Below, piece by piece: positions 8,476-30,994 of a DNA stretch of 50,422 nt (its first letter is position 1; each line of letters opens with the position of its first letter). Made by a program: the position numbers and the translations under genes. This stretch comes from a virus, in IMG/VR virus record IMGVR_UViG_3300031857_000295, positions 1 through 50,422 of that record. One strand, given 5' to 3'. Below the pieces are notes generated by a model that was not told the origin of the DNA, searched no databases, and saw nothing but the letters and a program-made list of their open reading frames with translations.

Positions 8476-8529
8476 ATGCCTTAACTGGCGTTAGGCTCTG
8501 CCATGTCTTAACTGTGGTTAAGCTCTCCC
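8476..8529. repeat. Two tandem 27-bp units, each with a palindromic core (possible operators)
   Basis: Units 8476-8502 and 8503-8529 align without gaps at 22 of 27 positions. Each has the core TTAACTG-NN-GTTA. The second core is CTTAACTGTGGTTAAG at 8507-8522, an inverted repeat of CTTAAC and GTTAAG arms. Further copies lie at 10281-10298 and 13286-13301. The pair ends 21 bp before the -35 element of the promoter for the 8638 gene, a location suited to an activator or a cooperative repressor. The cognate protein is unknown. Confidence 0.6.
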
Positions 8530-8550
8530 GTTTTAATTCGCTAAGTCGAT

Positions 8551-8579
8551 TTGGTCTAAGCGTCTATCTGGTCTATATA
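8551..8579 (+). promoter_or_regulatory. Rightward promoter of the 8638 gene
   Basis: TTGGTC (8551-8556) and TATATA (8574-8579) are separated by 17 nt. The twelve bases TTTGGTCTAAGC at 8550-8561 recur exactly at 13193-13204, where the same 17-nt spacing leads to TATAAC. The shared layout supports both sites being promoters. The leader to the ATG at 8638 would be about 50 nt. Confidence 0.5.
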
Positions 8580-8637
8580 TAAATCACTGGCGGGGAAGTC
8601 CTGCCAGATACACTTAAACGAATGGAATAAACACTTT

Positions 8638-9492
8638 ATGACTAATGTATCTCTTATTGCTTCCGGTATCGAACAACATCGTGACGGAACGGCGCAAGCG
8701 CAAGCGGGTATTGCTAACATCTCGCAAGGTATCATGGATAACTGGTTCTACTCAATGCGCTGGTCGTATGGTTCGGGTGATAACGAAGTGTCCGGCGTTT
8801 CCAATCTCGGCGATATGTTCAAGCACAAGTCGAACGGCAACGATGGCGCTGACTCCAAGTATCTTCCCGCTATGTATCGGGCGGTTGCGGATAACTTCGG
8901 TATTGAAGGCGCTATGTCCTCGGCTGATAAGATGGCGTTTCAACGTGCGTTCACTATTGCTGCGGCTCGGTTCGCTGAGGTTCCCGTTGAAATTGTCCAA
9001 GCTAACGTCAAGCGCAAGGGTAAGACTGTTAAGATTGCTGCGGTTCAAGTGCCTGCTTCGGTCGCGTATGATTTGGCTGACGATAACGGCGCTCCTAATG
9101 ATTTAGGGCGCGAGCTTATGGAACGGGTAAAGTCTAATCTTGAATTGCAATCGGCTGTTGTGCCTGACGATGCCAAGCTATTCGAGCAAGCTCAAGCCCT
9201 CAAGGTCAACTGCGTTGGCGGTCAACATCCAGTATTCGGCAAGGTTCCGTCTGCCACCGACATTGCTAACAGGTTGCATCCTTCGGCTGTTGGTGCTGGT
9301 GTCATGCAAGCTAAGGGTAACAGGTCTAAGCCAGTCAATGCCGACAAGTTCGGCGAGTCTCTAGAGTTTGTGACTAAGTGCTTAGACGAAGTGCTAGGCG
9401 ATAATGACGAAGCTGGGTTTGCTCCATCAACTGCGGTTGAAGACAAGCTGCGCGCTCTGGCTGAAAAGATTGCTGCCTATTTCGCAGCGTGA
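8638..9492 (+). CDS. Unknown protein encoded by an isolated transcription unit (284 aa)
   Basis: I do not recognise this family. The protein is soluble, Ala-rich and probably mixed alpha/beta. It has no nucleotide-binding loop, zinc site or membrane segment. Visible blocks are DNWFYSMRWSYGSGDNE (residues 33-49), a basic patch QANVKRKGKTVKIAAVQVP near residues 121-139, and a helical C-terminus ending EKIAAYFAA. The gene stands alone. It has its own promoter and tandem palindromes upstream, and a strong UUCG-loop terminator 33 nt downstream. Such wiring suggests heavy, separately timed expression. It faces the structural operon across the control region and precedes the candidate origin. Roles in host takeover, DNA binding or anti-defence are possible but unproven. 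Confidence 0.8.
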   Translation: MTNVSLIASGIEQHRDGTAQAQAGIANISQGIMDNWFYSMRWSYGSGDNEVSGVSNLGDMFKHKSNGNDGADSKYLPAMYRAVADNFGIEGAMSSADKMAFQRAFTIAAARFAEVPVEIVQANVKRKGKTVKIAAVQVPASVAYDLADDNGAPNDLGRELMERVKSNLELQSAVVPDDAKLFEQAQALKVNCVGGQHPVFGKVPSATDIANRLHPSAVGAGVMQAKGNRSKPVNADKFGESLEFVTKCLDEVLGDNDEAGFAPSTAVEDKLRALAEKIAAYFAA

Positions 9493-9525
9493 TTAACTGG
9501 CGGGGGCTGCGGCTCCCGCCTTCCG

Positions 9526-9556
9526 CCTCGCGGCCTTCGGGTCGCGGGGTTTTTTT
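9526..9556 (+). terminator. Rho-independent terminator after the 8638 gene
   Basis: A 10-bp stem pairs 9526-9535 with 9540-9549 (with wobble pairs) around a TTCG tetraloop and is followed directly by seven T (9550-9556). A C(UUCG)G loop and U-tract are the textbook form. It isolates the upstream gene from the candidate origin. Confidence 0.88.
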
Positions 9557-9568
9557 GCGTCCGCGTCG

Positions 9569-9611
9569 GGGCGCGGATTTTTCCGCGCCCTTTGTCCCCG
9601 AAGGGGACAAA
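9569..9611. other. Two further perfect hairpins behind the terminator
   Basis: A 9-bp stem joins 9569-9577 to 9582-9590 with a T4 loop. The next 9-bp stem joins 9591-9599 (TTTGTCCCC) to 9603-9611 with a GAA loop. They abut each other and follow the terminator by 12 nt. They may be back-up termination or RNA-end protection structures. On the minus strand the outer stem would not be followed by a T-run. Confidence 0.6.
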
Positions 9612-9652
9612 CAAACAAATTAACGCCAATCGAAGATTGTCATAATTAATCT

Positions 9653-9730
9653 ATGATAGAAGTGATGATAGTCACCAATGATAGTGTTCTACCTATGATA
9701 GTCACTTATCCATGATAGTTGCGGTGATAG
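9653..9730 (+). repeat. Iteron-like ATGATAG repeats
   Basis: ATGATAG occurs at 9653, 9665, 9678, 9695 and 9712, and a sixth shorter copy TGATAG lies at 9725. Spacings are 12, 13, 17, 17 and about 12 bp. Two copies extend to ATGATAGTCAC. All are in the same orientation in a gene-free region, which is the arrangement of initiator-binding iterons. Confidence 0.65.
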
Positions 9731-9735
9731 TAAGG

Positions 9736-9783
9736 GCTAACTGGTTGGGTGAGCGCCTGAGCTAACTGGTTGGGTGAGCGCCT
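9736..9783 (+). repeat. Direct repeat of 23 bp, two copies
   Basis: The 23-bp unit at 9736-9758, starting GCTAACTGG and ending GAGCGCCT, is repeated exactly at 9761-9783 after two bases. It follows the ATGATAG array and precedes a long palindrome. Confidence 0.8.
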
Positions 9784-9787
9784 CGAC

Positions 9788-9811
9788 CGTTAGGTTGAAC
9801 TCAACCTAACG
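9788..9811. repeat. Perfect 24-bp palindromic site with 11-bp arms
   Basis: Arm CGTTAGGTTGA (9788-9798) is mirrored by TCAACCTAACG (9801-9811) with AC between. No T-run follows, so it is not a terminator. It may be a protein-binding or cruciform site in the candidate origin. Confidence 0.8.
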
Positions 9812-10200
9812 TCCAAAATGGGCAAAGTCAACAAGAAAATGCAAAGTAGGCAAAATAATGCAAAGTTATGGTGCGGCTTTAAAACAATAACTTTAGTTTT
9901 CCTTATTTTTCAATGGTTTACACCCCTATTGTAGAAAGTTATAAAGTTATTGGGTTGTGAAGCCGGATTTTGATTTTTGACAGTGCGCATCTGTCCGACC
10001 CCTTCTATGCAGTGCGAAGGGCAAAAAGTGCCGGGCTCTCTATTTTCCCTACTACATTATAACTTTAAAACTATACTATACTACTACCCCCAAAAACTCC
10101 CACACTTCTGCGCCTCTCCAGCCATCCTCATATTGTTAGAAAACCAATGAGGGACTTCTAACATTACACAAAGTCCTACAATACCAAATCCCACCCTCAT
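9812..10200. other. AT-rich non-coding tract, candidate DNA-unwinding part of an origin
   Basis: No credible gene is seen. Repeated AAAGTTAT and TATAACTTTA words occur around 9860-10075. A nested inverted repeat lies at 10134-10163 (TGTTAGAA with TTCTAACA). GAGGGACTT occurs twice, near 10149-10158 and 10209-10218. Together with the iterons, direct repeats and palindrome just upstream, the tract looks like a replication origin, but no initiator site has been proven. Confidence 0.45.
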
Positions 10201-10229
10201 TTGACATAAGAGGGACTTTATGCTAATTT
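10201..10229 (+). promoter_or_regulatory. Strong rightward promoter for the early operon
   Basis: A perfect TTGACA (10201-10206) is followed after 17 nt by TAATTT (10224-10229), with TG one base upstream of the -10 (extended -10). It would start transcription near 10236, about 76 nt before the first early gene at 10312. It is the closest match to consensus on the plus strand. Confidence 0.62.
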
Positions 10230-10280
10230 AAATAATCGGCAGGACGTCGATGACCCCGCACACCAGTGCAAACACAAAAC

Positions 10281-10298
10281 GCTTAACTGGAGTTAAGC
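10281..10298. promoter_or_regulatory. Palindromic site directly before the first early ribosome site
   Basis: GCTTAACTGGAGTTAAGC has 8-bp arms with a 2-bp centre. It ends exactly where AAGGAGCAA (10299-10307) begins. As DNA it matches the core of the tandem units at 8476-8529. As RNA it would form a hairpin touching the ribosome site of the 10312 gene, so either transcriptional or translational control is possible. Confidence 0.6.
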
Positions 10299-10311
10299 AA
10301 GGAGCAACACA

Positions 10312-10512
10312 ATGACACAGGTCTTATGCAGAGACTGCTACACGCCGTTCGCAGTTGAACGGTTCCGCCTAGGCTACACTACATGCCTAGACTGCGGCGA
10401 CACCGCTGCGCGGCAGGTCGTATTCACGACCGCACCAATCAACAAGTCCAACTACATGCTGATTACTAACGTAACCGAGCTGGCTCAACTCAACCCAAAG
10501 AGGACATCATGA
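10312..10512 (+). CDS. Small zinc-ribbon-like protein (66 aa)
   Basis: Two cysteine pairs, C6-x2-C9 and C25-x2-C28, lie 15 residues apart and would bind one zinc. The C-terminal half contains NKSNYMLITNVTEL. The function is unknown; small zinc ribbons in early phage operons often bind nucleic acid or host proteins. It is the first gene after the strong promoter at 10201. The ATG follows AAGGAGCAA by 4 nt, and its stop overlaps the next start as ATGA. Confidence 0.65.
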   Translation: MTQVLCRDCYTPFAVERFRLGYTTCLDCGDTAARQVVFTTAPINKSNYMLITNVTELAQLNPKRTS

Positions 10513-10721
10513 TGACCGACTTCTACACCTACGTGCTTAGCTACTACGGACCGTATGGCCTCTACCCAATGGGCGTTACGTTAGCCGACGTGAAGGCAGC
10601 GACCGAGATACACAAGAAGCGCACACGCATAGCCTTCGACGGAGACAGCCACGACAGAGAGCAAGTGCGCGACATACTGATAGCGATGTTCGGTTACGAA
10701 TGGCCGGAGGATGCAGCGTGA
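10509..10721 (+). CDS. Small early protein, unknown (70 aa)
   Basis: The product has a Tyr/Gly-rich N-terminus (FYTYVLSYYGPYGLYPMG) and a helical, charged C-terminal half. I do not recognise it. Two adjacent ATG codons (10509 and 10512) are possible starts; the first gives an ATGA overlap with the zinc-ribbon gene. The stop TGA shares a base with the next ATG (TGATG), so the genes are coupled. Confidence 0.6.
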   Translation: MMTDFYTYVLSYYGPYGLYPMGVTLADVKAATEIHKKRTRIAFDGDSHDREQVRDILIAMFGYEWPEDAA

Positions 10722-10882
10722 TGAAAAGTAAGTCAGCACTATTCGCCAAAGGCACCGCACTACGTGCGCAGCTGGAAGCCAGAGGCTACGAAATCATCGA
10801 CGTGGATGTCGAAGTGCCAGACGAACTCAAAGGTATGAGCATGGCGCAGATATACGAGAAACTAAAGGAGCAAGACCAATGA
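10721..10882 (+). CDS. Small early protein, unknown (53 aa)
   Basis: The product starts MKSKSALFAKGTALRAQLEA and has an acidic middle (IDVDVEVPDEL) and a helical end. The ATG at 10721 overlaps the previous stop and has GGAGG 10 nt upstream, so I prefer it over an in-frame start at 10700. No domain is recognised. Confidence 0.55.
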   Translation: MKSKSALFAKGTALRAQLEARGYEIIDVDVEVPDELKGMSMAQIYEKLKEQDQ

Positions 10883-10974
10883 ACACCATACTACACGCAG
10901 CAGCCGAGATATTCTTCACGAGCGCAGGCATCTTCGCAATCTGGGCGATACACAACACACTCAAGGGGAAGTGA
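10879..10974 (+). CDS. Putative 31-aa membrane peptide
   Basis: The peptide is essentially one hydrophobic helix (AEIFFTSAGIFAIWAIH) with a basic end (LKGK), enough to span a membrane. The start overlaps the previous stop as ATGA, and AAAGGAGCAA lies 6 nt upstream. The stop is one base before the next ATG. The perfect fit between two genes and the good ribosome site argue that it is expressed. Target and role are unknown. Confidence 0.55.
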   Translation: MNTILHAAAEIFFTSAGIFAIWAIHNTLKGK

Positions 10975-10975
10975 C

Positions 10976-11437
10976 ATGGGTTACAGGTCAGAGGTAGACA
11001 TAGTCTTCTACGTGCCTAACGACAGTGAGACAGCATACGGACTGCTCAAGTTATGGTTTGACGAAAACTATCCGCATGCTGAAGCGAAGGACGAGTGGTG
11101 CGCCACCATCCAGTATGACGAGGAGAACCTAGCTATCTTGGTCTCATACCAAGACGTCAAATGGTATGACTCATACGAGCACCCGCAAGCGGTGGAGAAG
11201 GCGTTCGAGGACATCGACACACTGCTAGACCACCAGCACCTAACTGCAGTGGCCCAAGGCTTAACGCCAGTTAAGGAAGACAACCCAGACATCACGCCGT
11301 TCAACGTAGCGTGGGAGTTCGTAAGATTAGGAGAGGAGGACAATGACACAGAGATGCGCATGAGCGCCAATGCAGACTATGTAATAGCGGTAAACCGCTC
11401 AACAGAAATATCATTCACACCAAGGAAAACAACATGA
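10976..11437 (+). CDS. MGYRSEV-type conserved phage protein, unknown (153 aa)
   Basis: The N-terminus MGYRSEVDIVFYV is one I have seen in many phage and bacterial hypothetical proteins without a known role. The rest is acidic and alternates strands and helices (IQYDEENLAILVSYQDVKWY; AWEFVRLGEEDNDTEM), compatible with a small alpha/beta fold. No catalytic motif is obvious. It carries a CTTAAC-N4-GTTAAG copy inside its coding sequence (11260-11275). Its stop overlaps the next start as ATGA. Confidence 0.7.
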   Translation: MGYRSEVDIVFYVPNDSETAYGLLKLWFDENYPHAEAKDEWCATIQYDEENLAILVSYQDVKWYDSYEHPQAVEKAFEDIDTLLDHQHLTAVAQGLTPVKEDNPDITPFNVAWEFVRLGEEDNDTEMRMSANADYVIAVNRSTEISFTPRKTT

Positions 11438-11613
11438 CATTCGAAGAGAAACAAGCACTGCGCGAGATGCGCGACGACATGGTAGACGAGCACGACAAGA
11501 GCCTGATTAAGAAAGCACTCAACTATATCTACGACGTCGAGCGCAAGCTGGCAGCGATACGGGTGTTTGCAAAGGCCATCGACGCCGAGTCCAAGACCAA
11601 GGGAGAAGAATAA
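11434..11613 (+). CDS. Small charged helical protein, unknown (59 aa)
   Basis: This single, mostly helical, highly charged polypeptide begins MTFEEKQALREMRDDM and has KKALNYIYDVERKLAAIRVF in the middle. The ATG overlaps the previous stop (ATGA), and AAGGAAAACAAC precedes it. Its TAA shares a base with the next ATG. No family is recognised. Confidence 0.6.
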   Translation: MTFEEKQALREMRDDMVDEHDKSLIKKALNYIYDVERKLAAIRVFAKAIDAESKTKGEE

Positions 11614-11885
11614 TGCTAACCGCAGTTAAGCGGTGGCTGACGTTCCACTTGGTTAAGATAGCGTCACAGCTGGACGGTGAGTTATTCATGCGTCTGTGCG
11701 AGGTGGCTGTAATGGCTAAGTACTTAGACCAGATGGACGTGGTGCGCCTCGAACAAGAGCATGCCCATGACCACGACTATTATAACGAGAGGGAAGACTA
11801 TGACACAGATAGCAATACGACATATAACATCAACGCAACCAACAAGACCAACAAGACCAACAAGACCAACCGCAAATTCCACTAA
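11613..11885 (+). CDS. Early protein with Asn-Lys-Thr repeat tail (90 aa)
   Basis: The first 45 residues are helical and amphipathic; the rest is polar and low in complexity (His/Asp/Tyr, then NKT repeats). The repeats come from a 9-bp tandem array at 11841-11867 that is also read in another frame by the next gene. A palindromic copy (11615-11631) overlaps the start codon region. The function is unknown, and the last 28 residues may matter little because of the overlap. Confidence 0.55.
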   Translation: MLTAVKRWLTFHLVKIASQLDGELFMRLCEVAVMAKYLDQMDVVRLEQEHAHDHDYYNEREDYDTDSNTTYNINATNKTNKTNKTNRKFH

Positions 11886-12114
11886 TAACGTAGTAGGCAT
11901 AGGCACAGTGCTGCCGGGCCGCGAAGATAACGCAGCGGATATAGCTACTATCAAGCTCTTAACCGAGGTTGAGGCTATGCGCCGCCAGCTACGCGCACTC
12001 GAACCGCAGCTTAGCAAGATGATAACGGATTTCGGCTGGCGTCGTGGTAACAGTGGCTACCGTGAGTTCTTCCTACGCAACGAGCTGAACCGCCAGCAAT
12101 ACACGGAGAAATGA
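11800..12114 (+). CDS. Early protein overlapping the preceding gene (104 aa)
   Basis: Starting at MTQIAIRHIT (ATG 11800, preceded by GAGGGAAG), the frame overlaps the 90-aa gene by 86 nt. Its N-terminal part has PTR repeats from the shared 9-bp array. The C-terminal 60 residues are a regular helical region (LLTEVEAMRRQLRALEPQLSKMITDFGWRR) followed by a basic end, and look like the functional part. An in-frame ATG further upstream has no better site. The family is unknown. Confidence 0.55.
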   Translation: MTQIAIRHITSTQPTRPTRPTRPTANSTNNVVGIGTVLPGREDNAADIATIKLLTEVEAMRRQLRALEPQLSKMITDFGWRRGNSGYREFFLRNELNRQQYTEK

Positions 12115-12115
12115 G

Positions 12116-12274
12116 ATGACCGAGGCAAAGAAGCTGACCAAAGACCGGAACTACTACCGGATGCTGAGTGACGCAGAGTTAATCGCCTATACCAAGACCC
12201 ATACGCAGCTAACCGAGTTAGAGGTCGTGCTAGCAGAACGCCTCAAAGAGGCACGTAGGTTACACCACATATAA
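12116..12274 (+). CDS. Small charged helical protein, unknown (52 aa)
   Basis: The ATG at 12116 lies one base after the previous stop, and GGAG is 10 nt upstream. The 52-residue product is a charged helix pair (LSDAELIAYTKTHTQLTELEVVLAERLKEARRL) with heptad-like leucines, so it may oligomerise. No domain is recognised. Confidence 0.55.
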   Translation: MTEAKKLTKDRNYYRMLSDAELIAYTKTHTQLTELEVVLAERLKEARRLHHI

Positions 12275-12291
12275 GCAAAGGAGAAGATACC

Positions 12292-13191
12292 ATGTTAAAC
12301 TGGAGCACATACAACGCACTACCCCGCCTACACAGCTACGCAGCTGCACTAAAGCGTTGGGAAGAAACCGTCCCAATCAGAGGCGATGCAAACGGAACCA
12401 AGCCGATAGGCAGGCGCGACCAGAAGTGGTTTAGCATCTGGAAGCGCGACGACAAGGCAGTGTGTATCGGATACTCATACTGGAAGGACAAGGGCAAAGC
12501 TCTACTAGCTTACTACCCAGACGGGCGTGTGGCTATCGAGCAGAATATAGGTGCATCATGTCGTGAGCGCATACAGCGTATCGCAGGGCTAAACATCCAG
12601 CGTAAGTCGGGCGAGGACTGGGTGGCTGCAGCTACATACCAAGACGGAGAGGAAGTCATCGGGCATTACCCGCTGCAGCTACGCTACAATAGCCCACGCA
12701 AGGCGACATTCATCCTGCACGAGAACAGGGTCCCTACATACCTCAACCCCGTGCCTGTCTACAGACATGTCCTAAACCGCAAGGCCAAGGCAGAGATAAT
12801 GCCACGGTTCAAACCGTTCATGGATTACGTCGAGGTCATGGCTAAGCTAAGCGTGAACGAAGCGGATATTAGTCCGTGGACCAAGGAGAGCAGAGATAAC
12901 CCGCGCCTACCGACTGCTACCGTCGAAGAGCGTAGGGAGATGGGTATGCCAAACAGATGGACACCTGAATGGCAATTAGGCTTCATTAGCTTAATAGAGA
13001 GCGGCGAGACCGAGAACTGGTACAAGGCTATGACATGGCTGAGCGCAGGTCACTGGCGGTTACTGTTGAACGAAGCCAAGCTCACCGTGATGCACACGGT
13101 GCATAAGGAGTATCGTGACGTGCTGTTCACCAAGGTCAGGGCAGATGCAGGCAAGCTGGTGTATGACCGCTACGGCCAGTATTTCAGGTGA
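12292..13191 (+). CDS. Conserved phage protein, unknown (299 aa)
   Basis: This is a soluble, basic protein. The N-terminal half has a beta-rich pattern (KWFSIWKRDDKAVCIGYSY; LAYYPDGRVAIEQN) and the C-terminal half is helical with several Trp residues. No nucleotide-binding or catalytic motif is evident. GGAG lies 11 nt before the ATG. It is the last gene of the early block; a new promoter for the AAA+/VWA cassette lies directly after its stop at 13194. Similar proteins probably exist in related phages, but I cannot assign a role. Confidence 0.65.
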   Translation: MLNWSTYNALPRLHSYAAALKRWEETVPIRGDANGTKPIGRRDQKWFSIWKRDDKAVCIGYSYWKDKGKALLAYYPDGRVAIEQNIGASCRERIQRIAGLNIQRKSGEDWVAAATYQDGEEVIGHYPLQLRYNSPRKATFILHENRVPTYLNPVPVYRHVLNRKAKAEIMPRFKPFMDYVEVMAKLSVNEADISPWTKESRDNPRLPTATVEERREMGMPNRWTPEWQLGFISLIESGETENWYKAMTWLSAGHWRLLLNEAKLTVMHTVHKEYRDVLFTKVRADAGKLVYDRYGQYFR

Positions 13192-13193
13192 GT

Positions 13194-13222
13194 TTGGTCT
13201 AAGCAGCTACCTGTGGTATAAC
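13194..13222 (+). promoter_or_regulatory. Promoter of the AAA+/VWA cassette
   Basis: TTGGTC (13194-13199) and TATAAC (13217-13222) are 17 nt apart. The context TTTGGTCTAAGC is identical to that of the promoter at 8551-8579. A leader of about 90 nt follows, carrying a CTTAAC/GTTAAG palindrome. Confidence 0.52.
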
Positions 13223-13285
13223 CGTAGGACAATAAAGAGCCGCACAAGCGGACGCAGAGTAACAACCACAACAACCAAGCAAAGT

Positions 13286-13301
13286 CTTAACTGTAGTTAA
13301 G
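13286..13301. promoter_or_regulatory. Palindrome in the leader of the AAA+ gene
   Basis: CTTAACTGTAGTTAAG has 7-bp arms and a 2-bp centre. It lies 7 nt before the AAGGAG of the 13321 gene, in the same relative place as the copy before the 10312 gene. It could act as operator DNA or as a leader RNA hairpin. Confidence 0.58.
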
Positions 13302-13320: not shown

Positions 13321-14394
13321 ATGAGTGCATTAAACTTCGGCACAACTGTGTCACTCGCAGAGGCAGCAAGCCTTATCATCAACTGCCCAAACAATCGGTT
13401 CTTCCTTCAAGGTGAGCCGGGTATTGGCAAGTCTTCTATTATGGGCGCACTGGAGCGGCACTTCGGTGATGCGTATGCCTATGCGTATTTCGACTGCGCA
13501 CAAGCCGACCTTGGCGACATCGCCATGCCGAGTATCAATCGTGACAAGCAGATAACCGAGTATTTCGCTAACGCTGTCTTCCAGATACAATCAGGCAAGC
13601 CTGTGGTTATCATGCTAGACGAGTTCACTAAGGCACCGCAGCCTGTGCAGAATATGCTCCACCCCCTACTGGAGTCGCGCAAGCCACGGCTAGGTAACAA
13701 CGTGCTGCGCGATGGTTCCATCGTGCTTATGACTGGCAACATGGCAGGCGAAGGTCTTGGCGATACAGTCAAGCCACATACACGCAACCGCGTAACTACG
13801 GTTACGGTGCGCAAGCCAGACGCAGACGAGTGGTTGGCATGGGCAGTTACTAACGACATCGACCCTGTGGTTATGGCGTGGGTTAACCAGTTCCCCCATG
13901 CGATGGCGTCCTACATGGACGGTGACCAAGAGAGTAACCCATACATCTTCAACCCCAAGCGGATGCAGGGTAGCTTCGTATCAGGCCGGTCGTTGCAGCT
14001 TGCGTCTAACGACGTACTCAAGCAGCGTGATAAGCTCACGGCCAACGCGCTACTCGCAGCCATGGTGGGCACAATCGGTGAGTCTGCTGCGCGGGACATG
14101 CATGCCTTCGTTGAGTATCAAGACCAGCTACCTACGTGGGATGAAGTCATCAAAGACCCAGCCAAAGCCAAGCTACCCGATAGCCCCGGCGCATGCGCTG
14201 TTATGGTCTTCGGTGCGATTGCCAAGATTGAGCGCAACACAATCACGCCGTTCATGGAGTATGTCGAGCGCATGGCGTCCGAGTGGCAAGCTGTGTTTGC
14301 AATCAACCTGTCTAAGAACCCAGACAAGAAGCAGATTGGCTACACGTCCACCAAGTTCCGTGACTGGGCACTGGCTAACGTAGATATCCTGTGA
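13321..14394 (+). CDS. MoxR-type AAA+ ATPase (357 aa)
   Basis: Residues 31-38 (GEPGIGKS) form Walker A, 95-101 (VVIMLDE) Walker B, and TGN at 138-140 sensor 1. Arginines at 155-157 (TRNR) are placed for an arginine finger. The short AAA+ module followed by a helical lid is typical of MoxR/RavA-like ATPases, which remodel proteins together with VWA-domain partners. The partner is encoded two genes downstream. The ATG follows AAGGAGCATATC. Its stop overlaps the next start as GTGA. It is the first gene after the promoter at 13194. The substrate is unknown. Confidence 0.85.
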   Translation: MSALNFGTTVSLAEAASLIINCPNNRFFLQGEPGIGKSSIMGALERHFGDAYAYAYFDCAQADLGDIAMPSINRDKQITEYFANAVFQIQSGKPVVIMLDEFTKAPQPVQNMLHPLLESRKPRLGNNVLRDGSIVLMTGNMAGEGLGDTVKPHTRNRVTTVTVRKPDADEWLAWAVTNDIDPVVMAWVNQFPHAMASYMDGDQESNPYIFNPKRMQGSFVSGRSLQLASNDVLKQRDKLTANALLAAMVGTIGESAARDMHAFVEYQDQLPTWDEVIKDPAKAKLPDSPGACAVMVFGAIAKIERNTITPFMEYVERMASEWQAVFAINLSKNPDKKQIGYTSTKFRDWALANVDIL

Positions 14395-14576
14395 CCGAGG
14401 AGCTTCACGTCGTGGATGTGAAACGTGTGGTGCCTGTGTCGATATGGCAGGTCAATCTGTCCAACGGCAAAGTCATGCACGTTTCAGCCTTCGACCACCC
14501 CGACGAGCTATCCGCGTACGTATACGCAACTAACAGACTAAAGGAGCAAGCTAATGGCACTAACAGCCGAGCGTAA
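14391..14576 (+). CDS. Small protein between AAA+ and VWA genes, unknown (61 aa)
   Basis: It starts with GTG, overlapping the ATPase stop (GTGA). The 61-residue product has a beta-like pattern (VVPVSIWQVNLSNGKVMHVSAF) and a helical end. Its last 23 nt overlap the next gene. The overlap on both sides suggests it is translated as part of the cassette. No domain is recognised. Confidence 0.5.
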   Translation: MTEELHVVDVKRVVPVSIWQVNLSNGKVMHVSAFDHPDELSAYVYATNRLKEQANGTNSRA

Positions 14577-15750
14577 ACTAAGTAAGGTCGTGATTGACCT
14601 CATGCGCAACCCGTTGTTCGCAGACATGTCCGGTATCTTTATGATGGGCACGAAGCAGGTGAGCGACACGGTGCCAACTGCGCATACCAACGGGCGTGAT
14701 GAGGTGTATGGGCGTGAGTTCATCGATGCGCTATCCATACAGGAGGTAGCTTTCGTCGTGGTGCACGAGTCATTCCACAAGATGTATCGCCACCTGACTA
14801 CGTGGAAGAAGCTGTGGGATGAAGACCCACGGCTAGCCAACATGGCCTGTGACTACGTCATTAACCTAGAGATTGTCACCCGTGACCCGAACCGCACTGT
14901 GGTGTCTATGCCGCAGAAAGATGGCAAGCCCGTAGGTCTTATCGACCGCAGGTTCGCAGGTATGAACACCAAGCAGGTCTTCGATATGCTCAAGCAGGAG
15001 CAGGAAGAAGGCGATGGTGGCGGAGGCGGTGGTGATGGCGAAGGCATCGACCAGCATGACTGGGAAGGTGCGAACGACCTGACCAAAGAGGAGAAGGAAG
15101 AGCTGGTTAAGCAGGTAGACCAAGCCATACGGCAGGGGATGATTGCTGCACAGAAGATGCACGGCAAAGGTGCGGGCGGTATGTCGCGTGAGTTGACCGA
15201 CATCCTCGAGCCCAAGGTGGACTGGCGTGAGCAGCTACGTGAGTTCGTCAACGCCACGTGCGCTGGGCGTGACTACTCATCATGGCGCAAGCCTAGCCGG
15301 AGGTTTCTATCATCGGACATCATCATGCCGAGCCTTACGGGCGAGCGTGTGGGCAACATCATCATTGGCTGCGACACGTCTGGTTCAATCACCAACGAGG
15401 ACCACGCACGGAACCTGTCGGAGACTGACGCTATCTTATCCGTGGTTACGCCTGACAAGCTGCACATCATCTATTGGGACCACACGGTAGCTGCGCATGA
15501 GATATACGACGACTCGACACGCGGTTCGTTCCGCACGTCTACCAAGCCCATGGGTGGTGGGGGTACAAACCCCGACGCTATGGAGGCATATCTCAAGCAG
15601 CACGATATCAAGGCTGACTGCATCATCATGTTCACAGATGGCTACGTGCCTAACTGGGGTTCGGACTGGAACGGCGCACCGATACTGTGGGTAATTACAG
15701 GTGGTGGGCGGATGACCGCATCAACAGGCAAGACAATACATATCGACTAA
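14554..15750 (+). CDS. DUF2201-like putative metallopeptidase with VWA domain (398 aa)
   Basis: The N-terminal part has a zincin-like HESFH at residues 71-75, a further His at 80, and an ANMACDYVINLEI segment whose Asp100 could complete a metal site. After a Gly/Asp-rich linker (150-165) and a helical region, the C-terminal von Willebrand A domain shows the metal-adhesion motif DTSGS at 274-278, a Thr in GGGTNP near 338 and TDG at 361-363. This two-part layout matches the DUF2201 family as I remember it, in which VWA proteins act with MoxR ATPases. Peptidase activity is inferred from the motif only. Start ATG 14554 has AAAGGAGCAA upstream. Confidence 0.8.
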   Translation: MALTAERKLSKVVIDLMRNPLFADMSGIFMMGTKQVSDTVPTAHTNGRDEVYGREFIDALSIQEVAFVVVHESFHKMYRHLTTWKKLWDEDPRLANMACDYVINLEIVTRDPNRTVVSMPQKDGKPVGLIDRRFAGMNTKQVFDMLKQEQEEGDGGGGGGDGEGIDQHDWEGANDLTKEEKEELVKQVDQAIRQGMIAAQKMHGKGAGGMSRELTDILEPKVDWREQLREFVNATCAGRDYSSWRKPSRRFLSSDIIMPSLTGERVGNIIIGCDTSGSITNEDHARNLSETDAILSVVTPDKLHIIYWDHTVAAHEIYDDSTRGSFRTSTKPMGGGGTNPDAMEAYLKQHDIKADCIIMFTDGYVPNWGSDWNGAPILWVITGGGRMTASTGKTIHID

Positions 15751-16627: not shown

Positions 16628-17509
16628 ATGACACAGCAGAAAGTGAATTACCCGCTAGACGTGCACAATACATACTGGCCAAGCTACGACGACGCAGACT
16701 CACTAAGGCGCGCTGAGCGGTCCAAGGTGCATCCGTTCATGGCGCAGCTAATCGAGGCACTGCAAGTCAAGCGTCCAAACTGGGAGTTCGAGGCTTCTGG
16801 TTACGGCACTGTTAACCACAGCGGTGAGGTAAACGACATACTTCACTCATCCTTCGACATCTACGACAACGGGGAGAAGCTGGCCAGCATAGACAAGGAG
16901 TTCAAAGGCAACGGGCATGTGTATGCAGTTAAGAACCACCGTCTCGTTGCAGCGCGTGAGCGTGGGCTATGGACAAACCGTAAGAACCTCAAAGACATAA
17001 CCGCAGTTATACTCAAGAACGTCTACCCACACACAGTCGCAGAGATAGCAGATGCCAAGTACAAGGCGAGCCATAGCTCCGCGCAGAGCGCCAGCTACAG
17101 GGCTAGACAGCTTCACATCCGTGCGGTTGAGAGGCTGGCAGCGCCAGCGTTAGAGTTTCTATCATCGCAGTGGGACGCGTTTATGGCCGTCCCTACGGGC
17201 AACCTCCATGTGGACGAAGCCAAAGAAAAGTTCTTTGAGCTACGTGATAACGCAGAAGCAGCCAAGGTGCTTGCAAACAGCCCACACTGGGTGGTGGTTG
17301 AGCGTCCACGAGACTTTATCGTGCAGCCGGTGGGTAAAGAAGCATACGCATGCAGTCTGGAGTCCATGCCTGACCAAGTGAAGATGGCGCTAGGTCTACT
17401 CAAGATGACTGAGAAGGACACGTTGATTAATGACATAGGTGTACGCACCGACGTGGACACTTTCTTTATTTTACACAACCCAGTTGACGTACCACCCGAA
17501 GAGGGATAA
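16628..17509 (+). CDS. Conserved phage protein following the cassette, unknown (293 aa)
   Basis: The N-terminal 110 residues look alpha/beta (NWEFEASGYGTVNHSGEVNDILHSSFDIYDNGEKLASIDKEF). The middle is helical, and the C-terminal part again strand-rich (HWVVVERPRDFIVQPVGKEAYACS). No known motif is seen. The ATG follows AAGGAGCATTACA; the gap to the preceding gene is 14 nt, so it belongs to the same transcript and may be a fourth member of the AAA+/VWA set. The function is not known. Confidence 0.6.
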   Translation: MTQQKVNYPLDVHNTYWPSYDDADSLRRAERSKVHPFMAQLIEALQVKRPNWEFEASGYGTVNHSGEVNDILHSSFDIYDNGEKLASIDKEFKGNGHVYAVKNHRLVAARERGLWTNRKNLKDITAVILKNVYPHTVAEIADAKYKASHSSAQSASYRARQLHIRAVERLAAPALEFLSSQWDAFMAVPTGNLHVDEAKEKFFELRDNAEAAKVLANSPHWVVVERPRDFIVQPVGKEAYACSLESMPDQVKMALGLLKMTEKDTLINDIGVRTDVDTFFILHNPVDVPPEEG

Positions 17510-17534: not shown

Positions 17535-17837
17535 ATGGCGTCAACGCCAGAGAAAAGAGTCAAAGAAAAAATCGTCAAGGTGTTGAAGGAGGAAGGAGTT
17601 TACTACTTCTTCCCCGCCACCCATGGCTTTGGCCGCAGTGGCGTCCCTGACATAATATGCTGTGTGAACGGTTACTTCTTGGCCATCGAAGTCAAGGCAG
17701 GGACCAACAAGCCAACCGCCCTACAAGTGCGTGAGATTGAAACGATACGCCGGTCTAACGGCGTAGCCGTGGTAGCTAACGACGAGAACTGGGACATGGT
17801 GCGCGGACTGGTGCACAAGTTGAAGGAGCAGGGGTGA
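17535..17837 (+). CDS. VRR-NUC nuclease (100 aa)
   Basis: This is a minimal PD-(D/E)XK-type VRR-NUC domain covering the whole protein. The catalytic set is GVPD with Asp39 and IEVKAG with Glu52 and Lys54, followed by Gln64. Stand-alone phage versions are thought to cut branched DNA such as Holliday junctions. It would help resolve replication or recombination intermediates before packaging. The ATG follows AAGGAGCAAACAAC. Its stop shares a base with the next ATG. Confidence 0.85.
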   Translation: MASTPEKRVKEKIVKVLKEEGVYYFFPATHGFGRSGVPDIICCVNGYFLAIEVKAGTNKPTALQVREIETIRRSNGVAVVANDENWDMVRGLVHKLKEQG

Positions 17838-18433
17838 TGGATGTGGAAACCGACACCTGCAAGCAGATAGCCGCCCTAGCGGCTACGCATACCCAACGCG
17901 AGATAGCTAAACTTGTCGGTATGAGTCGCACAGCGGTATGTAAAAGACTTGTACACATGGGGGTTCGCACACAGAACGCTAGAGGACGCAAGCGTTTACC
18001 TTCCGTGAAGGGTATATGTCCCGCATGCAAGGTAGAGTTTGCGTTAGACTCTAACCAGAGAGACCATATTAAAAAAGGGCAGCAGCCGTGTTGCAGCAAA
18101 GAGTGTTTACGTCAGCACAAAGTAAACTGGGCTACTAGTTACGAGAACTATAGGAGCGGGCCGGAGTCTAATCGCTGGAAACATGGCTACGCGAGTATTG
18201 AAACACTTAAGAAGGTAATTAGTTATCTAGACGAGCACGGTAACGTGCCGGTTACTGAAATCCGTAATGCAGTAGGTGGATGTACTTATGCTACTGCGTC
18301 AAAGGCAAGGAGGGCGTTGGATATACCGTTACAAACAACCTTTAAGCATGGTTATTATTCCAATGTCGCCATAGAAGCGCGTGATACCATACGGAAAATC
18401 AACAAACTTATTAAAGAAGGAGCAAGAGCATGA
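17837..18433 (+). CDS. Helix-turn-helix protein with zinc-binding cysteines (198 aa)
   Basis: Residues 18-44 (THTQREIAKLVGMSRTAVCK and following) read as a resolvase/sigma-4-like helix-turn-helix. A cysteine group follows: CPAC near 62-65 and a CC-x3-C near 86-91, compatible with a zinc site. The C-terminal part holds a second helical segment. DNA binding is likely; the target is unknown. I prefer ATG 17837 over the GTG one codon earlier because it gives a TGATG junction and AAGGAG spaced 9 nt. Confidence 0.65.
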   Translation: MDVETDTCKQIAALAATHTQREIAKLVGMSRTAVCKRLVHMGVRTQNARGRKRLPSVKGICPACKVEFALDSNQRDHIKKGQQPCCSKECLRQHKVNWATSYENYRSGPESNRWKHGYASIETLKKVISYLDEHGNVPVTEIRNAVGGCTYATASKARRALDIPLQTTFKHGYYSNVAIEARDTIRKINKLIKEGARA

Positions 18434-19413: not shown

Positions 19414-21233
19414 TGGACATCTTGAACATCGACTTCGAGACCTACTACGACCGCGCCTTCTCGCTCTCCAAGATGACGACGGAGGAGTATATCCGTGACC
19501 CGCAGTTCGAGACCATAGGCGTTGCCGTTAAGCGCAACGAAGAAGAGACTGTATGGTTCACCGGCACCAACGCGCAAACCAAGCGGTGGCTACAACAGTG
19601 GGACTGGGATAACAGCATAGCTGTGGCTCATAACGCCATGTTCGACATGGCAATCCTTAACTGGCGTTACGACATTCGACCCAAGCGCATCGCAGATACC
19701 CTGTCTATGCTCCGTGCTATTGATGGACCGCATGCTGGTAACAGCCTAGCCAGAGCAGTTGAGCGTTACGGTCTGGGCGAGAAGGGCGACGAGGTTATCA
19801 ACGCGCTAGGTAAGCGGCGACTGGACTTCACTGACGAGGACATGGCCCGTTATGGTGAGTACTGCATTAACGACGTAGAGCTGACGCAGAAGTTGTTTAC
19901 TGTCTTGGCACCGCTCATGCCCGTGTCCGAGCTGCGTCTGATTGACCTGACTATCCGGATGTTCACCGAGCCGGTGCTGGTGTTGGATAAGAGTATCTTG
20001 GCTGCGCATTTGGATAACGTACAAGCCAAGAAAGAAGAGCTTATGGCTAAGCTTAACTACGACAAGTCCGAGCTGATGAGTAACCCGAAGCTAGCGGAAC
20101 TGTTGGAGTTTCATGGTGTGTCACCGCCCATGAAGGTGAGCGCCAAGACAGGTAAGGCAGCATTCGCCTTCGCCAAGAGTGATGAACTGTTCAAGGCACT
20201 GCTCGACCACCCCAATCCACAAGTGCAAGCCATCGTCGCTGCGCGGCTGGGCGTGAAGTCTACACTTGAGGAGACGCGGACCGAGCGGTTCGTAGCTATT
20301 GCTGACCGGGGACTACTACCAGTTCCACTACGCTACTACGCAGCACATACAGGCCGGTGGGGTGGCGACGACAAGGTCAACCTCCAGAACCTACCGCGCA
20401 AGTCACCGCTCAAGAAGTCTATGCGGGCACCAGAAGGCTATGTGTTTATCGACTGTGACTCGTCGCAAATCGAAGCGCGGACCTTGGCGTGGCTAGCTGG
20501 ACAGAACGACTTGGTGGATGCCTTCGACAAAGGTGAGGACGTCTATAAGATTATGGCGTCGTCTATCTACGAAGTGCCTATTGATGACGTGACGGATGAC
20601 CAGCGGTTCGTGGGTAAGACCACCATCCTTGGTTGTGGCTACGGCATGGGAAGTAGTAAGTTCCAAGCGCAGCTTAAGACATTCGGTGTAGAGTTGGACT
20701 CAAAAACCTGCGCGCATATTGTGTACAAGTACAGGGACCAGTTTAGCCAGATACCGCTACTGTGGGAGCAAGGGGATAAGGCGTTAGAGGCGCTTATGTC
20801 CACTAGGACCGCACAACTGGGTGAGCACGAAGCACTGCTAGTAGATATGTTCGGTATCAGGTTACCCAACGGTATGTACCTGCGGTACGATAACTTACGC
20901 AAGGAGCCAGACAAGAAGTCGGGCCGGGACCAGTTCGTCTACGACGTCAAGAAGGGTCGGGCTACGCTACCTACGTACATATACGGCGGGAAGCTGATTG
21001 AGAACGTGTGCCAAGCCTTGGCCCGTATCATTATCGGTGAGCAGATGCTGATGATTGCACGACGCTACCGTGTGGTGATGACCGTGCACGACGCCGTGGG
21101 GGTGATTGCCCCCATAGAAGAAGCTGACAAAGCCCGTGCGTTTGTTGAAGTCTGCATGCGCATGCGACCTAAGTGGGCCGCAGCGTTACCGTTGAACTGT
21201 GAGAGCAAGATAGGAGCAAGTTATGGCGGATGA
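19413..21233 (+). CDS. PolA-type DNA polymerase with 3'-5' exonuclease domain (606 aa)
   Basis: This is the replicative polymerase. The exonuclease domain shows DFE at residues 7-9, HNAMFD (Asp78) and YCIND (Tyr150, Asp154), the complete family-A proofreading set. The polymerase domain shows motif A DSSQIEAR at 349-356, motif B with Arg398, Lys402 and the YG at 410-411, and motif C VHDA with His559 and Asp560. There is no 5'-3' nuclease domain, as in T7 and many phages. I chose ATG 19413 (TGATG junction with the previous gene); starting earlier would add residues in front of the first catalytic motif. Confidence 0.93.
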   Translation: MDILNIDFETYYDRAFSLSKMTTEEYIRDPQFETIGVAVKRNEEETVWFTGTNAQTKRWLQQWDWDNSIAVAHNAMFDMAILNWRYDIRPKRIADTLSMLRAIDGPHAGNSLARAVERYGLGEKGDEVINALGKRRLDFTDEDMARYGEYCINDVELTQKLFTVLAPLMPVSELRLIDLTIRMFTEPVLVLDKSILAAHLDNVQAKKEELMAKLNYDKSELMSNPKLAELLEFHGVSPPMKVSAKTGKAAFAFAKSDELFKALLDHPNPQVQAIVAARLGVKSTLEETRTERFVAIADRGLLPVPLRYYAAHTGRWGGDDKVNLQNLPRKSPLKKSMRAPEGYVFIDCDSSQIEARTLAWLAGQNDLVDAFDKGEDVYKIMASSIYEVPIDDVTDDQRFVGKTTILGCGYGMGSSKFQAQLKTFGVELDSKTCAHIVYKYRDQFSQIPLLWEQGDKALEALMSTRTAQLGEHEALLVDMFGIRLPNGMYLRYDNLRKEPDKKSGRDQFVYDVKKGRATLPTYIYGGKLIENVCQALARIIIGEQMLMIARRYRVVMTVHDAVGVIAPIEEADKARAFVEVCMRMRPKWAAALPLNCESKIGASYGG

Positions 21234-23170: not shown

Positions 23171-23653
23171 ATGAGTATGAGAAAGAAAGTCATAGCAGGG
23201 AACGTTATAAAGCTGCTTAAGCAGGGCTATTCGCCCAAGGAAGTTACCCAGCGTATGGCGGTAAGCTACAACTACGCATGGAAGTTGAAGAAAGATTTAG
23301 AGAAAGCGGCGAAAGAAGCCGTAGCTGAAGTCAAAGAATGGGTCGAAGAGAAAGTCGAACCCAAACCCGAACCCGAAGTCAGTGGGGTGGGTAAGGTGCT
23401 AGACGCAAGGGCGGAACAATATGGTTCGTTCATGCAGTCTTCGGATACGGTTATCAGGATTAAGAGCATTCTACACAATGTGGTGGCTCGTAACGAAGTG
23501 CTCCTATACCCTGACCAGCTACAGGCGTTGGATATGATTGCGACCAAGATAAGTCGCATCGTGCATGGCAACCCAAACCACCTAGATAGCTGGATTGATA
23601 TAGCCGGATATGCTACGTTAGTGGCCGACCGTCTCCAAGGGAAAATCAGATAA
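23171..23653 (+). CDS. HTH plus DUF6378-like protein (160 aa)
   Basis: The N-terminal 45 residues form a helix-turn-helix (NVIKLLKQGYSPKEVTQRMA, then KLKKDLEK). A Lys/Glu/Pro-rich linker follows. The C-terminal 85 residues begin LDARAEQYGSFMQSSDTVIR and include HLDSWIDIAGYATLVADRL, which I recognise as a DUF6378-type helical domain found in many phage early regions. The domain has no firmly known function. Fusion to an HTH points to a DNA-directed role. AAGGAGCAAATGAA precedes the ATG. Confidence 0.65.
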   Translation: MSMRKKVIAGNVIKLLKQGYSPKEVTQRMAVSYNYAWKLKKDLEKAAKEAVAEVKEWVEEKVEPKPEPEVSGVGKVLDARAEQYGSFMQSSDTVIRIKSILHNVVARNEVLLYPDQLQALDMIATKISRIVHGNPNHLDSWIDIAGYATLVADRLQGKIR

Positions 23654-23654
23654 C

Positions 23655-24326
23655 ATGACAGCGTGGTCCTATAGTAGCATCAAGACCTTCGACCAGTGTC
23701 CGAAGAAGTACTTTCACCTCAAGGTGATTAAGGACGTAAAGGACGACCCCGGCGAAGCAGCTATCTATGGGACCAACGCGCATGAAGCAGCCGAGCACTA
23801 CATCAAGCACGGTACTCCTATACCAGAGAAGTTCAGCATCATGCGGCCCGTCGTGGAAGTGCTGGCCCAGTTTCCGGGCGAGAAGCACACCGAGCTGAAG
23901 CTAGGCGTAAAGAAAACGGGTACTGGCTACGAACCATGCGGCTTCTTCGATAAGGACGTATGGTGGCGCGGCATCGTCGATTTGCTCATCACAAACGGCA
24001 CAACTGCCCACATGGTAGATTACAAGACCGGCAAGAACGCTAAGTATGCGGACATGAAGCAGCTGGACCTGATGGCTGGTGCAGTGTTCGTGCACTACCC
24101 AGAGATAACCAAGGTTAAGTCGGGGCTGGCGTTTGTGGTGTCCAACGAGTTTCCTAAGAAGACCCACAAGCGTGAGCACTTGGATACGTACCTATCTGTG
24201 TTTGATAATCAGCTAGAACAGCTTGAGGCCAGCATGGATAATGGTGTATGGAACGCAAAGACCAGCCCGTTATGTGGTTGGTGCCCAGTTAAAAGCTGTG
24301 AGCATTGGAAACCACGGAGGCATTGA
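23655..24326 (+). CDS. Cas4/RecB-like PD-(D/E)XK exonuclease with Fe-S cysteines (223 aa)
   Basis: Key residues are His43, Glu80, Asp109 (GIVDLL), the Asp122-Tyr-Lys124 of VDYKTG and Gln136, a full PD-(D/E)XK set. Four cysteines at 15, 207, 210 and 215 are placed to hold a 4Fe-4S cluster joining both ends, as in Cas4 and AddB-type nucleases. Such phage enzymes process DNA ends in recombination. The gene lies between the DUF6378-like and HNH-like genes and ahead of the SNF2-like helicase. Its stop shares a base with the next ATG. There is no CRISPR locus, so Cas4 refers to fold only. Confidence 0.82.
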   Translation: MTAWSYSSIKTFDQCPKKYFHLKVIKDVKDDPGEAAIYGTNAHEAAEHYIKHGTPIPEKFSIMRPVVEVLAQFPGEKHTELKLGVKKTGTGYEPCGFFDKDVWWRGIVDLLITNGTTAHMVDYKTGKNAKYADMKQLDLMAGAVFVHYPEITKVKSGLAFVVSNEFPKKTHKREHLDTYLSVFDNQLEQLEASMDNGVWNAKTSPLCGWCPVKSCEHWKPRRH

Positions 24327-26650: not shown

Positions 26651-27577
26651 ATGACCAATTTGACCATCTTTAAAAACCCAAACGCTATGACTGCCGGAGC
26701 ACTGCCACCATCCAAGATGGGTACGCAGATTGCTGCGAGCATGGGCGGTTATAACCGCATCGCCACCAACACCAACGGCACGTTCAAGCGTATCGTAAAC
26801 GGTGAGCAGGTCGGCAAAGCCATCCGTGGTGAGTTCAACGCCATCATCCTTGCTATGCTAGAGAAGCCTAGCCGCAGCTTCTACGCTAGTGACTACGACC
26901 CCGACGCTAAGGGCACTGCACCTGACTGCTTCTCTAACCTAGGTGACAAGCCAGAGGCATCCGCCTCCAACCGTCAGGCGTCTAACTGTGCCAGCTGCCC
27001 TAAGAACATAGACGGTTCGGGTAAGAACGGTAAGGGTAAAGCCTGTCGCTTCAGCCGCAAGGTCGCGTTGTTCTTAGACGGTGACGAGTCCGGCGACGTG
27101 TATCAGTTCAACATCCCAGCTAAGTCGCTATTCGGTAAGGGCACCGGTAACACCTTGCCGTTCGAGCAGTACTGCCGCCACTTGGTGTCTAACGGTGCAG
27201 CGCCTGACCGCGTGGTGACCACCATCGCATACAACCTCGACGCAGAGACTATGGAGCTTAACTTCACTGCTGACCGGTTTATTGACCTAGAAGAGCTGGA
27301 GCGCGTCACTGAGGCACAAGAGAACGCCGCCACGACCCGTCTGATTAGCTTCGACATCGTGAAGGCTGCTGCCGCAGAAGAACCTGCTAAGCTTGCAGCA
27401 CAAGCCGAGCCGAAGGCGAAGAAGCCATCGTTCTTAGACGCTGATGATGAAGACGAAGAGGAAGAAGAACTTCCCGAGCCAGTAAAGCGTCCATCCAAGA
27501 AGGCCACCGCTGAACCTACCGGCACTATTGCTGCTGTAGTAAGCCGGTGGGGCGACGACGAAGAAGACGACGACTAA
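26651..27577 (+). CDS. Probable single-strand DNA-binding protein with acidic tail (308 aa)
   Basis: The core (residues 20-230) has the segments SMGGYNRIATNTNGTFKRIV, a Cys cluster NCASCPKN...KACRF, and strand-rich stretches (LFLDGDESGDVYQFNIP). The last 50 residues are very acidic and end GDDEEDDD, the hallmark of single-strand binding proteins that recruit partners. Position just before the primase-helicase supports the call. ATG 26651 is chosen (GAGAG upstream); an in-frame GTG four codons earlier overlaps the previous stop. No OB-fold was proven by comparison. Confidence 0.6.
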   Translation: MTNLTIFKNPNAMTAGALPPSKMGTQIAASMGGYNRIATNTNGTFKRIVNGEQVGKAIRGEFNAIILAMLEKPSRSFYASDYDPDAKGTAPDCFSNLGDKPEASASNRQASNCASCPKNIDGSGKNGKGKACRFSRKVALFLDGDESGDVYQFNIPAKSLFGKGTGNTLPFEQYCRHLVSNGAAPDRVVTTIAYNLDAETMELNFTADRFIDLEELERVTEAQENAATTRLISFDIVKAAAAEEPAKLAAQAEPKAKKPSFLDADDEDEEEEELPEPVKRPSKKATAEPTGTIAAVVSRWGDDEEDDD

Positions 27578-27819
27578 TGAGTAGCGGTTATAGCTTACGG
27601 ATACAGGAGGCAAACGCCAAGGCGAGCAAACACAAGTTGGGTGTTCGCCTAGGTAGGCTCTGCATTGCGCAGGACATTCCTGTAGCCGTAGTCGCTAAGT
27701 GTACAGGCGTAACAAGGCAGACAGTATATAATTGGTTCTGTGGGACTTCCATCCCACAGGGCACTCCCGCCGCCCTTATAGCTGTATACATGGCAAGTCT
27801 GGAGAGTTCTGTCTCCTAA
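27577..27819 (+). CDS. XRE/Cro-like helix-turn-helix regulator (80 aa)
   Basis: Residues 20-62 (KLGVRLGRLCIAQDIPVAVV and ahead to VTRQTVYNWFCGTSIP) are a five-helix repressor-type domain with the recognition helix around TRQTVYNWF. Start ATG 27577 gives TAATG with the SSB-like stop. It is the only clear phage-repressor-type protein in the window. It may bind one of the palindromes here, which is untested. A perfect 8-bp inverted repeat (27738-27745 with 27752-27759) lies in its coding region. Confidence 0.7.
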   Translation: MSSGYSLRIQEANAKASKHKLGVRLGRLCIAQDIPVAVVAKCTGVTRQTVYNWFCGTSIPQGTPAALIAVYMASLESSVS

Positions 27820-30959: not shown

Positions 30960-30994
30960 CCCCCGCTGGCGCTACTCCCCGGCGGGGGTTTTTT
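30960..30994 (+). terminator. Rho-independent terminator of the rightward operon
   Basis: A 10-bp stem pairs 30960-30969 with 30979-30988 (one G-T pair) around a 9-nt loop and is followed by six T (30989-30994). It ends at the stop codon of the convergent 2315-aa gene. On the minus strand no T-run follows, so it works mainly rightward. Confidence 0.85.

Follow-up and report, generated by a model that had tools for sequence, protein, structure and literature searches.

The window analyzed here is the whole of the 50,422-base virus record IMGVR_UViG_3300031857_000295. Its structural genes run leftward, and an early and replication arm encoding an AAA+ ATPase (phrog_1297), a metallopeptidase-VWA protein, PolA, a helicase, a primase and a giant DarB-like protein runs rightward. 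Along this arm lie dispersed copies of the palindrome CTTAAC-N4-GTTAAG, the most over-represented inverted repeat of the window. An earlier note on this DNA had listed several of these copies, placed three of them at the starts of transcription units and proposed a phage regulon that acts through DNA binding.

A palindrome over the early region

We counted four exact copies of the palindrome and 12 copies with at most two mismatches, against 1.77 of the latter expected from 100 dinucleotide shuffles (s.d. 1.38, maximum 6), so that the motif exceeds a shuffled background, as the earlier note's reading implied. No exact copy appeared in 300 order-3 Markov simulations. The core TAAC-N4-GTTA occurs 12 times in the window, compared to a simulated mean of 0.84 (maximum 6; order-3 Markov, n = 300). 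When the spacer was varied from 0 to 12, every other length gave at most three copies and only N4 stood out.

The copies and neighboring features are collected in Table 1. Placement before the promoter of the gene at 8638, at the first early ribosome site (gene 10312) and in the AAA+ leader agrees with the positions given previously. The earlier list needs small corrections. The copies at 8480, 11615 and 19656 carry one, two and one mismatches, respectively. Of the three copies described as lying inside genes (11260, 11615 and 19656), the one at 11615 actually overlaps the start of an open reading frame (ORF) at 11613. The list was also incomplete, lacking the copies at 11958 and 28615, and the phenomenon proved far larger than had been noted. 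The tandem copies at 8480 and 8507 are offset by 27 bp, and both lie upstream of the −35-like box starting at 8551.

Table 1 Palindrome copies and associated features of the window
Feature	Position	Strand	Remark
Palindrome, 1 mismatch (CTTAACTGGCGTTAGG)	8480-8495		First of tandem pair
Palindrome, exact (CTTAACTGTGGTTAAG)	8507-8522		Second of tandem pair; ~28 bp 5' of −35-like box
Sigma70-like promoter TTGGTC-17-TATATA, gene 8638-9492	8551-8579	+	By eye, consensus-like only
Palindrome, exact (CTTAACTGGAGTTAAG)	10282-10297		Immediately 5' of the zinc-ribbon gene's ribosome site
CxxC zinc-ribbon-like early protein, 66 aa	10312-10512	+	First gene of early operon
Palindrome, exact	11260-11275		Within gene 10976-11437
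Palindrome, 2 mismatches, core TAAC-N4-GTTA intact	11615-11630		Overlaps ORF start (ATG 11613)
Palindrome, 1 mismatch (CTTAACCGAGGTTGAG)	11958-11973		In gene
Sigma70-like promoter TTGGTC-17-TATAAC, 5' of AAA+ gene	~13193-13221	+	By eye
Palindrome, exact (CTTAACTGTAGTTAAG)	13286-13301		35 nt 5' of AAA+ start, just before ribosome site
AAA+ ATPase (phrog_1297 / AAA_5)	13321-14394	+	Early-region anchor
Core TAAC-N4-GTTA with CG arms, 2 mismatches	13791-13806		Within AAA+ gene
Metallopeptidase-VWA protein (DUF2201_N + DUF2201)	14554-15750	+	
Palindrome, 2 mismatches	15435-15450		
Palindrome, 1 mismatch	19656-19671		Within DNA polymerase gene
Palindrome, 2 mismatches	24104-24119		
Cro/C1-like helix-turn-helix protein, 80 aa	27577-27819	+	Candidate binder; ORF opens 27547
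Palindrome, 1 mismatch	28615-28630		Within primase gene; possibly chance

The palindrome in related genomes

A scan with the AAA+ gene gave 34 loci on incomplete contigs, whose genes were predicted with our own simple caller; P values below are Poisson approximations and the relatives are not independent. Most close relatives (AAA+ identity of at least 88%, contig long enough) retain the copy in the AAA+ leader, 35 nt upstream of the start. They also mostly keep the copy that precedes the zinc-ribbon gene, the tandem pair at its 27-bp offset (present in L009, L013, L017 and L023) and near-equivalents of the copy in the polymerase gene. The three control-point places are thus retained in most close relatives reaching that far, in line with the conservation that the earlier note had made a touchstone of its proposal. 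In L011, L014 and L016 the leader copy is not kept in the window form; the L014 leader has the palindrome CCAGAC-ACAA-GTCTGG, a single sighting. The core inside the AAA+ gene has a counterpart at the matching position in L014, L016, L018 and L019.

At 49–73% AAA+ identity, the leader palindrome mostly stays in place with changed arms, as in CTAAC-N3-GTTAG, GCCTAAC-N3-GTTAGGC, GACCTAAC-AAT-GTTAGGTC and GATAAC-TAC-GTTATC. Relative genomes contain 7–24 copies each of TAAC-N3-GTTA or TAAC-N4-GTTA, and a de novo search supplied with no motif returned this family as the top over-represented inverted repeat in nearly all TAAC genomes (up to P ~1e-36). Each genome has its own spacer length, 3 or 4 and rarely both (G044 is mixed): N3/N4 counts are 0/15, 0/13, 0/11 and 0/7 in the N4 genomes G002, G004, L031 and L025 and 19/1, 18/0, 11/0 and 16/0 in the N3 genomes G014, G011, L026 and L030.

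Most copies fall within one 5–10-kb stretch around the AAA+ gene on contigs of 50–64 kb, and in G010 and G014 the first site lies 5' of the first promoter and the last one closely precedes the early terminator. Spacing between sites is regular in dense N3 genomes (coefficient of variation (CV) 0.27–0.45; random placement, 1), and several lineages strongly favor gene junctions and start sites. Where sites lie inside genes, codons for the same residue are identical in 26 of 26 comparisons at the AAA+ site and 30 of 33 at the VWA sites, compared to a fraction of ~0.5 elsewhere; these pairs are not independent.

Loci at ~33% AAA+ identity, together with their own relatives, have unrelated palindromes in the same architecture. 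These comprise TTTCCTAC-N-GTAGGAAA (11–12 copies), CTTATAC-N4-GTATAAG (9 copies), GTTAGGGA-N-TCCCTAAC (6–8 copies), TAGTCACGTGACTA (6 copies) and, in L079 and L080, CTCCT-N5-AGGAG (10–12 copies). The last is the weakest of the alternative palindromes and partly coincides with ribosome sites, an overlap confined to these two loci; at several genes it covers the ribosome site itself, reminiscent of the mycobacteriophage SAS element. No such palindrome was seen in L033 and L034. The cultured Planktothrix phage Pag-Yong1, whose annotation includes an ATPase and a VWA protein as well as a large polyvalent protein, carries GTTCA-N3-TGAAC 22 times, mostly as GGTTCAG-N-CTGAACC (P ~2e-47). The first 50 kb of each of the terminase-related phages HTVC023P, HTVC027P, DSL-LC04 and 023Pt_psg01, for which no ATPase/VWA pair is annotated, contained no such palindrome.

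Several further sequence elements were observed in these regions. At the place of the window promoter 13193–13221, AAA+ leaders of relatives have TTGAC-N17-TACAAT-like boxes; they show TTGACT...TGTGCTACAAT, and the two promoter-like stretches of the window have TTTGGTCTAAGC...CTAyCTG in common. The AAA+ leaders of the window (13239–13252) and its relatives contain, in the stretch that separates promoter and palindrome, a second, small GC hairpin (CCGCACAAGCGG and variants). Short direct repeats (atgatagt units; GCTAACTGGTTGGGTGAGCGCC twice) occupy 9640–9810, in the interval that separates the early operon from the first rightward gene. In G002 and G007 (loci L054–L057 and L069–L071), a second inverted repeat, GCCTG-N3-CAGGC, is enriched with six copies in addition to the TAAC palindrome.

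A candidate binding protein

The earlier note had named the XRE-like ORF at 27577–27819 as a possible binder, and comparison across genomes favored this choice. Its family, A3, matches HTH_23, HTH_3, HTH_31, P22_Cro and phage repressor PHROGs, with the window member below curated cut-offs. A Cro-like helix-turn-helix (HTH) gene of this kind was present in each of the ten long TAAC genomes examined, always in one slot flanked by two conserved genes, and is absent from all four examined genomes with other palindromes: the slot is closed to 60–99 bp in G021, G023 and G024, and the gene was not found in G026. These four have a nearby gene for an 84–97-aa HTH_17 (MerR/Xis-type) protein, which the TAAC genomes lack. 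The association also held out of sample. The HTH protein, as sole query, retrieved 25 further contigs: the six with the AAA+ gene all had 7–24 TAAC palindromes, and the remaining 19 had 0–7. Across a small number of lineages, the residue at position 48 of A3 in the recognition helix (Q, A, T or M) may vary loosely with the flanking base. HigA, a small dimeric HTH protein of the XRE family from Pseudomonas, binds TTAAC GTTAA (PMC6987408); a TAAC half-site therefore suits the HTH fold. Taken together, these sequence comparisons make the Cro-like protein the likely binder of the TAAC palindromes. One scan of bacterial genomes returned no relative of it, and no cultured phage record matched.

Other early proteins fared less well as candidates. 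The zinc-ribbon gene is preceded by a palindrome in other lineages too (L035, L076 and G006), and its product is conserved where the palindrome differs, making it a poor candidate for specificity; a conserved APxNKSNYxLI motif was observed in this protein. The winged HTH protein at 17834–18433 was excluded, as relatives that share the palindrome lack it and it was found only in L017. An HTH protein at 23171–23653 was likewise rejected, occurring with other palindromes and missing from some TAAC genomes. For the proteins at 12292–13191 and 16628–17509, AlphaFold models (pLDDT 87 and 82) had no fold match in the PDB, and the 16628–17509 model matched only unnamed phage proteins in BFVD; a binding role is not supported for either. 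Both diverge far faster than their neighbors (44–65% versus 85–97% identity in the same close relative, and 20–30% in others), and members of the 16628 family occur in 17 of the 18 genomes that have the cassette. Fast divergence was also seen in the DarB-like giant protein (30993–37940, 2,315 aa; phrog_10089), at 26–82% in relatives.

Probable early-region operators and alternative readings

A small dimeric regulator made by the phage, most likely the 27577–27819 protein, probably uses the palindromes as double-stranded DNA operators and would thereby shut off the early region. Under this proposal, operators would stand at promoters, at gene junctions and inside genes throughout the rightward-transcribed early unit. 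Since the gene for the regulator is located further downstream, ahead of the primase in the replication module, its product would appear later than those of the early genes. Once made, it would bind every site, preventing transcription from starting where sites adjoin promoters and forming a roadblock to elongating polymerase at the remaining ones. In the most economical model, the net effect would be a stoperator-like shut-off of the early region by multisite repression.

Several observations weigh against this proposal. Because TAAC and non-TAAC genomes form two clades, the association between HTH protein and palindrome is confounded by ancestry, and other families, such as that of 12292–13191, are also nearly restricted to TAAC genomes. 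Two close relatives (L011 and L016) have no leader copy, and codon identity is not raised at the sites of two further genes. Many Pag-Yong1 sites lie exactly 22–23 nt 5' of a start codon and those of several lineages 18–30 nt before one, a placement that a pure roadblock does not need. Moreover, the inner pair of the spacer is asymmetric in the window, G005 and the G010 group, and in some lineages the center is biased by strand (C in 12 of 12 sites of L036).

The last of these points also bear on whether the palindromes work as RNA, that is, as hairpins just 5' of ribosome sites through which an RNA-binding protein of phage or host origin, or processing and stability, would control translation of early mRNA. 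Sites do directly precede ribosome sites at many genes, the L036 bias fits such a role, arms vary between lineages in a compensating fashion, and the predicted fold of the window leaders and of L028 contains the hairpin; these folds, however, do not surpass those of shuffled sequences in stability (z −0.2 to −1.4), and an Rfam search found no match. A spacer fixed within each genome fits a protein dimer rather than RNA hairpins, in which triloops and tetraloops are interchangeable. Complementarity, moreover, extends to the inner pair, which could not pair in a hairpin loop (9 of 11 sites in G009, 10/11 in L026, 14/18 in G011, 14/16 in L030, 12/12 in L024 and L025 together and 16/16 in G037). 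Asymmetric centers occur in both orientations in most genomes (ATTT four times and AAAT three times in L025), and the first sites lie 5' of the first promoter. Single-base departures from symmetry comprise 43 non-wobble, 5 G-U and 2 A-C cases outside Pag-Yong1, so the pairs that RNA tolerates are not preferred there; in Pag-Yong1 the corresponding figures are 3 other, 8 G-U and 3 A-C. On this sequence evidence we judge double-stranded DNA sites to be the better reading, and the earlier note's preference for DNA binding gains support from the genome-specific spacer, central symmetry, frozen codons and sites 5' of the promoter. A control element made of RNA appears unlikely as the main function, and sites just 5' of start codons leave some room for an RNA or translational role.

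If the sites are bound as DNA, the protein might organize or mark the early region for segregation, condensation or packaging, like ParB/parS or KorB, rather than control transcription locally. The many evenly spaced copies of the dense N3 genomes, in and between genes of a single region, would suit such an array, and the L081 palindrome contains CACGTG. We nevertheless regard it as improbable: none of 19 records has a ParB_N match, the absence of a tyrosine integrase does not suggest a plasmid or prophage stage, and the preference of several lineages for junctions and start sites points elsewhere. It is more improbable again that the phage exploits or tolerates sites of a host regulator or defense-related protein. 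TAAC half-sites are ordinary targets, as the binding of TTAAC GTTAA by Pseudomonas HigA (PMC6987408) illustrates, and hosts may differ between lineages, but the sites, far from being avoided, are over-represented and conserved, occupy one region only and go together with an HTH family that the phages themselves encode. A last possibility is hairpin promoters of the N4 type, read by a virion RNA polymerase; it is suggested by the relationship of the AAA+ gene to those of N4-like phages and by stems of 5–8 bp with 3–4-nt loops before early genes. This explanation is very hard to sustain, given leaders preceded by sigma70-like promoters, both loop orientations, mid-gene sites and no RNA polymerase family among the large proteins scanned (by profile search only). 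In the Schitoviridae phages VBP47 and 1.026.O, no repeat of this kind was seen in the sequence surrounding the related AAA+ gene.

The proposed operators most resemble the stoperators of cluster A mycobacteriophages (L5 and Bxb1). In these temperate phages, 20–30 short repressor sites are dispersed over promoters and short intergenic spaces and have been proposed to block both initiation and elongation; they are asymmetric 13-bp sequences, oriented with transcription and bound by a repressor monomer (PMC6550527, PMC9283540). Many dispersed short sites with a lineage-specific consensus are common to both systems (7–24 per genome here). By contrast, the palindromes are twofold symmetric with asymmetric centers in both orientations, are confined to the early region, extend into genes under codon constraint and have as their candidate binder an 80-aa Cro-like protein encoded in the replication module. 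No Phage_integrase (tyrosine) match was found in 19 partial records, in which ParA and serine integrases were not searched for. SAS and ESAS elements of cluster K mycobacteriophages, of unknown function, occur in 11–19 copies at start sites of the non-structural half, SAS being a 13-bp asymmetric sequence at translation starts and ESAS paired 17-bp inverted repeats with a variable spacer and a consensus that differs between subclusters (PMC3203893). They share with the palindromes multiple copies at starts and an inverted repeat with a lineage-dependent consensus, but we found one short palindrome with a fixed spacer that lies 5' of the ribosome site and also mid-gene and upstream of promoters. 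Symmetry, early confinement and the lack of a detected integrase, together with these differences from SAS/ESAS, mark the system as a new variant that belongs to neither group. HigA has similar half-sites and is likewise a small dimeric HTH protein, but its sites are found at one or two promoters and it has a toxin partner (PMC6987408), as opposed to 7–24 sites with a spacer of 3 or 4 here. KorB of plasmid RK2 offers a parallel of operators for one plasmid protein in long-range gene silencing but belongs to the ParB family (PMC11790492), whose ParB_N domain was not found in our 19 records.

A bolder and rather doubtful extension is that a widespread, non-lysogenic-looking phage group has its early genes overlaid with a private code of palindromes. 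Exchange would then involve operator and regulator together, with Cro-like and MerR/Xis-like HTH proteins swapped near one slot, and each lineage could turn off the early regions of itself and of its sisters and ignore others, giving early shut-off and a lysogeny-free immunity. More immediately, the palindromes add a regulatory layer and a named candidate regulator to a large, mostly uncultivated phage group. A single palindrome enriched over the early region is a simple signature that may reveal regulator specificity from sequence alone, and Pag-Yong1, being cultured, makes the system testable. Because arms, spacer and regulator class differ between relatives, these phages provide a natural experiment in operator–regulator coevolution.

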